A stretch of DNA of 64,000 nt, taken from positions 372,001 to 436,000 of the forward strand of contig NZ_CP034450.1 of NCBI RefSeq assembly GCF_003952505.1, in the 5' to 3' direction. Positions 53,138 through 55,524 of the stretch are shown here, piece by piece. Made by a program: the position numbers and the translations under genes. The number at the start of each line of letters is the position of its first letter. Position 1 is the first letter of the stretch. Below the pieces are notes generated by a model. The model was not told the DNA's origin and did no database searches. It saw nothing but the letters and a program-made list of their open reading frames with translations. The stretch comes from Mesorhizobium sp. M4B.F.Ca.ET.058.02.1.1. Its GTDB lineage: Bacteria > Pseudomonadota > Alphaproteobacteria > Rhizobiales > Rhizobiaceae.

Positions 53138-54547
53138 CTATTCAGCCGCCTCTGCCTGCGCCGGCAGGCCCAGCCATTGGCGGCAATCGGCCAGCGCGCG
53201 CCCCGTGATCGCGTGGCGCTTGGCGACCGTCTTGTCCTTGCCGCGCAGGCGTTTGCCTTCGATCTTCGGCGCTTCCACCGGCGGGAAAAGGCCGAAATTG
53301 ACGTTCATCGGCTGGAAGGAGCGTTTGCCCGGTTCGTCGTCGGAAACGAGGTGGCCGCCGGTGATGTGGTTGAGCAGGGCGCCGAAGGCGGTGGTGAGTG
53401 GCGGCAACGATGGCGCATGGCCGAGACGCTCGGCGGCGGCGAAGCGGCCGGCGAGCAGGCCGATGGCCGCGCTCTCGACATAGCCTTCGCAGCCGGTGAT
53501 CTGGCCGGCAAAGCGCAGGCCTGGCCGCGATTTAAGCTGCAGCGAAGCGTCAAGCAGGGTCGGCGAGTTGATGTAGGTGTTGCGGTGCAGGCCGCCGAGG
53601 CGGGCGAAATCGGCGTTTTCCAGGCCGGGAATGGTGCGGAACACGCGCACCTGCTCGGCATGCTTCAGCTTGGTCTGGAAGCCGACCATATTGTAGAGCG
53701 TGCCCAGTGCATTGTCCTGGCGCAGCTGGACGACGGCGTACGCCTTCACCGATGGATTGTGGACGTTGGTCAGCCCCATCGGCTTCATCGGTCCGTGGCG
53801 CAGCGTCTCGACGCCGCGTTCAGCCATCACCTCGATCGGCAGGCAACCGTCGAAATAGGGCGTGCCTTCCCATTCTTTGAACTCGGTCTTCTGGCCGTCG
53901 ACCAGCGCCTGGACGAAGGCGAGATACTGGTCCTTGTCCATCGGGCAGTTGATGTAGTCCTTGCCGGTGCCGCCGGGGCCGACCTTGTCGTAGCGCGACT
54001 GGAACCAGCAGGTGTCCATGTCGATCGTGTCGAAATGCACGATCGGCGCGATCGCATCGAAGAAGGCGAGCGCATCGGCGCCAGTGGCCTGCGCGATCGA
54101 TTGGGCCAGCGAAGGTGCGGTCAGCGGGCCGGTGGCGATGATCGCCTGGTCCCAGTCCGCCGGCGGCAGGCCGGGCACTTCCTCGCGCTGGATGGTGATC
54201 AGCGGATGCGCTTCGATCTTTCGGGTCACCGCCTCGGAAAAGCCGTCGCGGTCGACGGCCAGCGCGCCGCCGGCCGGCACCTGGTTCGCGTCGCCCGCGC
54301 TCATGATCAGCGAACCGGCAAGCCGCATTTCGGCATGCAACAGGCCGACCGCGTTGGTTTCGGCATCGTCGGAACGGAAGGAGTTGGAGCAGACGAGCTC
54401 GGCCAGACCATCGGTCTTGTGCGCATCGGTGCCGCGGACGGGCCGCATCTCATGCAGCACGACCGGAACGCCGGCCTCAGCGATCTGCCAGGCGGCTTCG
54501 GAGCCGGCGAGGCCGCCGCCGATGACGTGAACGGGATTTTTGCTCAT
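53138..54547 (-). CDS. trmFO: Folate-dependent tRNA (uracil-54-C5)-methyltransferase TrmFO
   Basis: 469 residues from ATG 54547 ([19 protein letters not shown]). The FAD-binding [10 protein letters not shown], the TrmFO mark [31 protein letters not shown] and [16 protein letters not shown] are diagnostic. The enzyme makes ribothymidine at position 54 of tRNA with methylenetetrahydrofolate and FADH2, as in Gram-positives and many alphaproteobacteria. Its stop touches that of the sterol-desaturase-like gene. Upstream lie the cuckoo RNA units, transcribed in the same direction. Confidence 0.95.
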
Positions 54548-54639
54548 GGGCGCCGGAATAATCGCTTGTCGCCGCGATTGCAATTGGCGCGAAGGACAGG
54601 AAAGGGCCGAAGGGCGGCAAAGCCGGCCTCAGAAACACA

Positions 54640-54747
54640 ACACCCGCCGGGGAGGAGGTCCGGCGGGTGTCGTTTTGGGGGTCGATCCTCGGGAGGAGGT
54701 GAAGATCGACCGTATTCGTCATCGCCGGGGAGGAGGTCGGCTCTGAC
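54640..54747 (-). ncRNA. Cuckoo-type small RNA unit, distal copy (three CCUCCUCCC hairpins)
   Basis: Read on the minus strand, this unit has three hairpins in order 54718-54747, 54680-54711 and 54640-54670. Every loop exposes ACCUCCUCCC or a one-base shorter form. The last has an 11-base perfect stem (ACACCCGCCGG / CCGGCGGGTGT) followed by TTGTGTTT, so it likely also ends transcription. The loop motif resembles the anti-Shine-Dalgarno end of 16S rRNA. Loop sequence, repeat structure and the DUF1127 genes upstream match the cuckoo (CcsR) small RNAs known from Rhodobacter. The unit is 200 bases from its paralogue at 54840-54945. Confidence 0.8.
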
Positions 54748-54839
54748 GAAATTCCTTTCGCCGTTTGAAAAGGGGCGAAACCTTTGGAAGACGAACTGCA
54801 TTCGCTTCGAAAGACGAACAATGTTCGCTTCGGGAACAA

Positions 54840-54945
54840 CGCCCGCCGGGGGAGGAGGTCCGGCGGGCGCCGTTTCAGTGGTCAACCCTTGGGAGGAGGT
54901 AAGGGTTGGCCGTATCCGTCAGGGTCGGGGAGGAGGTCGACCCTG
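54840..54945 (-). ncRNA. Cuckoo-type small RNA unit, proximal copy (three CCUCCUCCC hairpins)
   Basis: On the minus strand, 15 bases after the second DUF1127 stop, three hairpins follow: 54920-54945 (stem CAGGGTCG), 54880-54911 (10 of 11 pairs) and 54840-54869 (10 perfect pairs, then TTGTT). Each loop is ACCUCCUCCC. Compared with the distal copy, loops are conserved while stem bases change on both sides together, indicating selection on structure. It is probably transcribed with the DUF1127 genes and then processed, as in the Rhodobacter CcaF1-CcsR locus. Confidence 0.8.
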
Positions 54946-54960
54946 GCGAAATTCTTGTAC

Positions 54961-55101
54961 TTAGACCGCCTTGCGGGCGACCATCTTGATCTCGTCACGG
55001 ACGATGCCGAGATCATGGAGCTGGCGATTCGACAGACGACCCAGCTCGGTAACCGTCTCGCGATAAACGCGCCAGTTACGATAGTTGCGGATCAGGTTCA
55101 T
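54961..55101 (-). CDS. DUF1127 small protein, second copy
   Basis: 46 residues from ATG 55101. The sequence begins MNLIRNYRNWRVYRETV and contains LGRLSNRQLHDLGIVRDEI and ends MVARKAV, the DUF1127 pattern (an aromatic/basic N-terminal helix and the L-S-N-R-x-L-x-D-L-G-I core). It shares 35 of 46 residues with the copy upstream. Members are strongly basic and one, CcaF1 of Rhodobacter, acts as an RNA-binding protein affecting the cuckoo RNAs. Such an RNA unit starts 15 bases after this stop. Confidence 0.92.
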   Translation of the reverse strand: MNLIRNYRNWRVYRETVTELGRLSNRQLHDLGIVRDEIKMVARKAV

Positions 55102-55152
55102 TGTCGTTCTCTTCTTCAAAACTGGTTCGGACCATTCGCGGCCCGAAGCGGA

Positions 55153-55293
55153 TTAGACCGCCTTGCGAGCGACGTAGTGGATGTCGCTGCGGCTGATGCC
55201 GAGGTCGGTCAGTTCACGGTTCGACAGGCGGCTCAGCTCGGAGACGGTGTCCCGGTAGCGGCGCCAGTTGCGGTAGTTGCGGATCAGGTTCAT
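55153..55293 (-). CDS. DUF1127 small protein, first copy
   Basis: 46 residues from ATG 55293 (MNLIRNYRNWRRYRDTV), with LSRLSNRELTDLGISRSDI as the DUF1127 core, ending YVARKAV. It is the upstream member of a tandem pair, 51 bases before the second copy, and both appear to come from one duplication. Length, charge (Arg/Lys-rich) and context suggest an RNA-binding or RNA-chaperone role in stress responses. A possible heat-shock-sigma-type promoter lies upstream at 55346-55375. Confidence 0.92.
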   Translation of the reverse strand: MNLIRNYRNWRRYRDTVSELSRLSNRELTDLGISRSDIHYVARKAV

Positions 55294-55345: not shown

Positions 55346-55375
55346 AAAATAGGTGGGGTCATATCGATTTAAAAG
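55346..55375 (-). promoter_or_regulatory. Candidate promoter of the DUF1127-cuckoo RNA operon
   Basis: On the minus strand CTTTTA and CCTATTTT are 16 bases apart. This loosely resembles RpoH-type promoters (CTTG.. and C-T-A-T-A-T-like -10). The Rhodobacter counterpart is driven by RpoH sigma factors. The match is weak, and the rest of the 231-base gap to 55525 has no gene. Confidence 0.3.
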
Positions 55376-55524
55376 TGCCATTGGCGCATGGCAGCAATGC
55401 AAATTGTGCAATGCAACACTAACGGCCATACGGCTTCGACATAAAGAAGCCCGAATCCGAAAATGCCGTGGTGTCAACGGTTTGACCGTGTGGGCTGGAA
55501 AAAGATCGAGGGCAGGGGGAAGGC

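Follow-up and report, generated by a model that had tools for sequence, protein, structure and literature searches.

The locus studied here is probably a Mesorhizobium DUF1127-αr14 operon of the 'CIN1' type, in which an LsrB/VtlR-activated transcript would be processed into αr14 RNAs that block ribosome-binding sites. We computed the genes, the predicted fold, the covariation, the family membership, the operator match, the spacing of the -10 element and the co-conservation of these parts. The window, meaning the whole 64-kb stretch of DNA that was analysed, comes from a host genome of 6.46 Mb in one contig, and on its minus strand a promoter region is followed by two DUF1127 genes, two triple hairpins and trmFO:

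55388..55410, minus strand: LsrB/VtlR-type operator predicted from sequence, exact match to TGCA-N6-GCAT-N3-TG-N3-T
55370..55375, minus strand: -35-like hexamer CTTTTA, 17 nt before the -10
55347..55352, minus strand: -10-like hexamer CTATTT, at the CTAT spacing from the box
55153..55293, minus strand: DUF1127 gene 1, 46 aa (PF06568, 61.8 bits, cut-off 23.3)
54961..55101, minus strand: DUF1127 gene 2, 46 aa (PF06568, 55.9 bits, cut-off 23.3), with no box of its own at -145..-90
54834..54955, minus strand: αr14 small RNA copy 1, three hairpins (RF02344, 95.2 bits, full length)
54928..54936, minus strand: anti-Shine-Dalgarno (anti-SD) motif 1, CCTCCTCCC, in loop (motif count and fold)
54891..54899, minus strand: anti-SD motif 2, in loop (motif count and fold)
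54850..54858, minus strand: anti-SD motif 3, in loop (motif count and fold)
54635..54755, minus strand: αr14 small RNA copy 2, three hairpins with a T-rich stretch after the last (RF02344, 81.9 bits, full length)
54728..54736, minus strand: anti-SD motif 4, in loop (motif count and fold)
54691..54699, minus strand: anti-SD motif 5, in loop (motif count and fold)
54650..54658, minus strand: anti-SD motif 6, last C paired in the best fold (motif count and fold)
53138..54547, minus strand: trmFO, the gene that follows on this strand (NCBIfam NF003739, 681.2 bits, cut-off 262), a neighbour outside the system

The first-pass annotation had described a pair of 46-residue DUF1127 genes followed within 15 bases by six hairpins, and this description is borne out: both proteins match the DUF1127 domain, folding returns six hairpins at the six motifs downstream of the pair, and the distance holds because the first αr14 match starts at 54955, 5 bases after the second stop codon. 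The span that it gave, 54640..55293, takes in the core of the locus but not its edges, as αr14 copy 2 extends to 54635 and the promoter, at about 55347-55410, is not included. Its broader proposal, a rhizobial locus of DUF1127 genes and cuckoo RNAs like ccaF1-CcsR, is supported in a refined form, with RNAs of the αr14 family (RF02344) rather than CcsR and a promoter that carries an LsrB/VtlR-type box.

The family assignment comes from covariance models. Both triple hairpins score above the αr14 cut-off of 58.8 bits, while the scores of 37.6 and 31.1 bits against CcsR1 (RF02791) fall below that model's own cut-off of 65.3, and CcsR1 membership was rejected. Published descriptions give αr14 RNAs, NfeR1 of Sinorhizobium meliloti among them, three hairpins in which a CCUCCUCCC anti-SD motif is unpaired (PMC10746234, PMC7143759). 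Each unit at the locus likewise has three hairpins whose stems vary and whose loops carry CCUCCUCCC, with the last C of the sixth hairpin's motif paired in the best fold. The longer form GGGAGGAGG occurs six times in the window, always at the locus and at the six motif starts given above, against a mean of 0.66 in shuffled windows, none of which (0/100) reached six. The minus strand of 54630-54985 folds at -161.2 kcal/mol (z -8.69; 0/100 shuffles as low), and five of the six predicted loops are ACCUCCUCCC, fully unpaired, the sixth being ACCUCCUCC. We take the CCUCCUCCC loop to resemble the 3' end of 16S rRNA; the host's own 16S tail was sought in the assembly with GGATCACCTCCTTTCT and TGGATCACCTCCTT, neither of which gave a match.

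Covariation supports these hairpins. Among 53 aligned αr14 first units (66 were available, and the 13 omitted all come from single-DUF1127 loci), 98.3% of cells are paired, and two-sided changes occur at 18 of the 37 pairs. Values as high were reached in 0 of 500 shuffles, and sliding the partners abolishes the signal. Across 253 hairpins from 62 loci, the two arms of a hairpin form 11.1 pairs on average, compared with 4.9 for randomly dealt arms, and the stems are highly diverse, with 209 distinct arm pairs among these motif-picked hairpins. Both sets were searched by the motif, which is therefore invariant in them by design. In the 253-hairpin count, as in the box and layout counts and the stricter in-cis count below, 'αr14' denotes two or more closely spaced CCTCCTCC motifs and not a model match.

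The stem covariation and the strand-specific model matches also argue against the repeats being DNA elements, or being read from the plus strand. One promoter-like site (55436-55464) and one terminator-like site (54917-54948) on that strand could be cited for such a reading, but both scan matches are near shuffle expectation, and DUF1127 genes and promoter elements lie on the same strand as the hairpins in many genera. We reject this reading as barely credible. On the minus strand the same scan returned no promoter and a single terminator-like site, at 55393-55376; it takes loops of at most 8 bases, and is thus blind to αr14 loops. A purely cis-acting role, in which the hairpins stabilise the 3' end of the DUF1127 mRNA, terminate it and insulate trmFO, would fit hairpins that begin 5 bases past the second stop codon and a last hairpin that is a strong stem followed by T-rich sequence. 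Yet a terminator needs no shared 9-base motif in hairpins 1 and 2, some αr14 units stand alone with their own box, and NfeR1 is described as acting in trans (PMC10746234), all of which makes a role confined to cis very improbable. Of the 80 named loci among the matches listed, each at most 8 kb long, 57 include the N-terminus of trmFO.

In the spacer between the two αr14 units, at 54756-54833 of the window on the minus strand, CGAAGCGAANNNNGTTCGTCTT can be seen twice by eye, and this stretch is perhaps a processing region. A point against the operon model is that in a published small RNA screen of M. huakuii none of the 40 table entries carries the name αr14, though many of the entries are unannotated (PMC5596092); the same screen describes MH_s25, a small RNA with a complex banding pattern.

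The promoter carries a predicted operator. The sequence TGCACAATTTGCATTGCTGCCAT occupies 55388-55410, 117 nt upstream of the first DUF1127 gene, and fits two published consensus forms joined together: TGCA-N6-GCAT, through which LsrB is reported to activate NfeR1 from the RNA's own promoter (PMC10746234), and GCAT-N3-TG-N3-T, also given for LsrB/VtlR (PMC8844928). The putative NfeR1-type part occupies 55397-55410. The joint pattern has no second match in the window (shuffle mean 0.04) and four in the whole genome, where a reversed control pattern has one. With a loose pattern, TGC(A/G)-N5-6-(G/A)CA(T/A), a box lies at -145 to -90 of 55 of 68 first DUF1127 genes, where shuffling predicts 0.95, and a control stretch further up contains it in 3/68. 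At the same distance none of eight second DUF1127 genes has a box, nor does any of 55 embedded αr14 units at -80 to -60. Stand-alone αr14 units do: 15 of 35 have one at -80 to -60 (0.18 expected) and 20 of 35 at -130 to -60 (0.55 expected). At the tested spacing, 13/68 first DUF1127 genes and 20/35 stand-alone αr14 units are without a loose box. These counts omit 18 loci (15 repeats of an already counted place, and L008-L010, which hold the host's longer DUF1127 genes) as well as elements with less than 250 nt upstream. The two stand-alone αr14 genes of the host genome, at 2484344-2484462 (+) and 3065183-3065298 (-), are among the units that have no box at the usual spacing.

In a reverse test, genomes were scanned with a strict, longer box pattern built from DUF1127-headed promoters, and 80 named loci are among the matches listed. 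In all 80 of these listed loci the box precedes DUF1127 or αr14. The next element after it is DUF1127 in 77 of the listed 80 and αr14 in two, and one further locus (L091) ends after MNLIRNY; the two stand-alone αr14 genes behind a strict box in this list score 81.0 and 82.9 bits. αr14 motifs follow in 71 of the 77 listed loci that begin with DUF1127, and among the six that lack them, five end at the locus edge and one (L093) does not. Two consecutive DUF1127 genes occur in 57 of the 80 loci listed, and the layout of the window locus, two DUF1127 genes and then two αr14 units, is the commonest among them (36/80), which makes the locus ordinary for its genus. Most of the listed loci belong to Mesorhizobium, with others from Aminobacter, Phyllobacterium, Chelativorans, Aurantimonas, Jiella, Nitratireductor, Aquamicrobium and some unassigned bins.

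αr14 itself is widespread, reaching E ≤ 0.001 in 97 of 101 genomes of the host's family and the cut-off in 91 of them; the host genome has four αr14 matches, two at the locus, and six DUF1127 matches. The operon and separate forms of DUF1127 and αr14 both exist. In a group of other genera (L041-L046, L055 and others), αr14 units and DUF1127 genes are neighbors, and several have their own box. Because loci outside the reverse test were selected by their αr14 content, they give no population estimate of how many DUF1127 genes are accompanied by αr14.

The core promoter bears on how far the locus resembles its best-known relative. Of the 80 named loci examined among the matches listed, 62 carry CTAT somewhere between offsets 54 and 61 from the box start, and in 61 of these it stands at offset 58; CTT(T/C)(T/A)A prevails as the -35 in the 62 that could be aligned. 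The elements of the window locus resemble both the RpoH1 and the RpoD consensus. In the named loci the -35 fits RpoH1 CTTGAA (mean 3.97 of 6) better than RpoD CTTGAC (3.10), and input from a stress sigma factor is thus possible. The locus could work exactly as ccaF1-CcsR does in Rhodobacter, as a heat or oxidative-stress operon of the RpoH type whose DUF1127 proteins bind the RNAs and steer their maturation by RNase E. Gene order and loop motif are shared, and ccaF1-CcsR is described as driven by RpoHI/RpoHII, with CcaF1 taking part in CcsR maturation (PMC10253847). The LsrB/VtlR-type box at fixed spacing and the sub-threshold CcsR1 scores count against full equivalence, as do reports that RNA binding was not found for the DUF1127 protein YjiS and that Agrobacterium DUF1127 proteins act through PhoR (PMC12501420), and on balance we think full equivalence unlikely. 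The role of DUF1127 is disputed more generally: CcaF1 is described as binding RNA, and Salmonella YjiS and the Agrobacterium proteins as binding other proteins (PMC12501420). A further known arrangement, the attenuator of S. meliloti duf1127_1, is described with a 29-aa uORF and 279 nt between start site and start codon. It was ruled out for the window locus, where some 53 nt between the -10-like element and the ATG leave no room for such a uORF.

Under the operon model that we favor, a LysR regulator of the LsrB/VtlR type would activate a single promoter upstream of DUF1127 gene 1, and the transcript would run through both DUF1127 genes into the two tandem αr14 units. Since a box is missing before both the second DUF1127 gene and the αr14 units, a single transcript from one activated promoter is the simplest reading. 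The αr14 units would be cut from the 3' region of the mRNA as RNAs of about 120 nt, in each of which three CCUCCUCCC loops could pair with GGAGG-type ribosome-binding sites of many mRNAs and block their translation; six loops may add dose and redundancy. LsrB binding, anti-SD silencing and RNase E maturation are drawn by analogy from relatives: the CcsR RNAs are described as RNase E processing products of the 3' region of the ccaF1 mRNA (PMC8307010, PMC10253847), and NfeR1 loops as silencing by pairing at the ntrB start region (PMC10746234). For the host species we infer co-transcription, processing and targets.

For S. meliloti, the predicted targets are described as transport and metabolic genes. 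In the host genome the loop meets only GGAG at the start region of ntrB, at -5.8 kcal/mol, so this S. meliloti target is not clearly kept, and ntrB finds weak support as a conserved target. Rather than selecting mRNAs, the RNAs might serve as a general decoy for the anti-SD tail of the ribosome, and so as a global brake on SD-led translation. One loop motif repeated six times on very different stems would suit a decoy, bearing in mind that the hairpins in which stem diversity was counted were picked by that motif, and the related AbcR1/2 are reported to touch 6% of S. meliloti genes (PMC8844928). A decoy would presumably need RNA in near-ribosomal amounts, however, and the experiments described for NfeR1 indicate base pairing at the ntrB start region (PMC10746234); we give the decoy little weight beside pairing with individual mRNAs.

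A candidate for the activator is a LysR-family gene (PF00126, PF03466) directly after trxB in the host genome. In Brucella, vtlR is described as adjoining a thioredoxin reductase gene, and VtlR as activating DUF1127 genes (PMC12595884). The host gene reached no named NCBIfam regulator cut-off among the 25 of 55 families listed, and we take it as a putative LsrB from its position.

DUF1127 start regions in the operon contain no GGAGG, which raises the idea that αr14 RNAs shut SD-led mRNAs while the DUF1127 genes of the same transcript, having little SD, stay translated. Across 133 distinct small DUF1127 genes, a match of at least four bases to GGGAGGAGG is found in 25 of 76 with αr14 in cis and in 47 of 57 without it (p 1e-8, uncorrected for ancestry), and median loop pairing is -3.9 versus -7.0 kcal/mol. 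The set omits genes that have no ATG near the domain, exceed 60 aa, lie too near a locus end or are duplicated. The contrast recurs among box-bearing DUF1127 genes (15/50 in cis, 35/38 not) and with a stricter first definition of 'in cis' (22/70 versus 50/63), and weaker pairing with the loop for the cis copies is seen in 15 of the 18 genomes that contain both kinds (p 0.0075). Against this, 34% of 177 long ORFs reach the four-base level when the first ATG is crudely taken as the start; this background is about the cis level, so the contrast may reflect strong SDs in the other DUF1127 genes. A gene tree provides three supported independent pairs, with a median p of 1 and no trend in SD length, and pairing energies on this quick tree lean slightly opposite to self-exemption. 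Loci L016, L268 and L071 are counter-examples. Ancestry may explain the weaker SDs of the cis genes, and given the background level and the three-pair tree test we reject cis-exemption as an established fact; as an idea, we find it doubtful.

Several parts of this arrangement are already published separately, namely the DUF1127-CcsR-like locus, the control of an αr14 RNA by LsrB and that of DUF1127 genes by VtlR. The association of DUF1127 with CcsR-like cuckoo RNAs is known as the 'CIN1 locus' (as cited in PMC10253847), and the window locus, with short DUF1127 genes beside CcsR-like RNAs, falls within that description. Like ccaF1-CcsR1-4 of Rhodobacter sphaeroides, it has DUF1127 immediately before tandem hairpin RNAs with CCUCCUCCC, all on one strand; unlike that locus, which has one DUF1127 protein of 71 aa and is described with an RpoHI/RpoHII promoter (PMC10253847), it encodes two of 46 aa, scores below the CcsR1 model and has a putative LsrB-type box. 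LsrB-dependent conditions may therefore be relevant in Mesorhizobium, beside heat and singlet oxygen. With NfeR1 it shares the three hairpins, the CCUCCUCCC loops, the variable stems, a score above the αr14 cut-off and an LsrB-type box in the presumed driving promoter. NfeR1 is described with its own promoter and box (PMC10746234), whereas the two αr14 copies here lie behind DUF1127 genes and have none. The predicted operator fits both consensus forms of the VtlR/LsrB regulon, which comprises AbcR RNAs and small DUF1127 genes, and a DUF1127 gene lies downstream; the accounts of that regulon covered here, PMC12595884 among them, treat DUF1127 and small RNA targets as separate genes, and at this locus both would stand behind one operator.

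What appears to be new is a useful regulatory link, in which DUF1127 and αr14 lie behind one predicted LsrB/VtlR-type box. Neither the titles and abstract openings listed nor the cited passages report LsrB, DUF1127 and αr14 joined in one operon, although the bodies of further papers may hold one; the literature base also included PMC12218461, PMC7486931, PMC3927594, PMC11975290 and PMC10117765, in part. One operator would thus connect three subjects: anti-SD RNAs of the NfeR1 type, the LsrB/VtlR regulon, and small DUF1127 proteins, whose function is disputed between RNA binding and kinase binding. Should the DUF1127 genes under LsrB/VtlR control often front transcripts of anti-SD RNAs, phenotypes ascribed to the proteins may partly stem from the RNAs.

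The host genome holds further sites of this kind. A third small DUF1127 gene, at genome 5174115-5174336 (+), has the same LsrB-type box with 0 mismatches, a better Shine-Dalgarno (CTGGAGAC) and no αr14 motifs downstream (L007/L062). At genome 3349180 (+), a box-like site with 2 mismatches precedes a 54-aa ORF, beginning MGSRKLFSAIGDIF, that looks DUF1127-like by eye and has no Pfam match at E 0.1 (L207). Finally, a box-like site with 2 mismatches at genome 1085583-1085607 (-) precedes two hairpin-like, G+C-rich repeats, each followed by a T run (L206); this stretch has no Rfam match at gathering score, and is a candidate for an unlisted small RNA.
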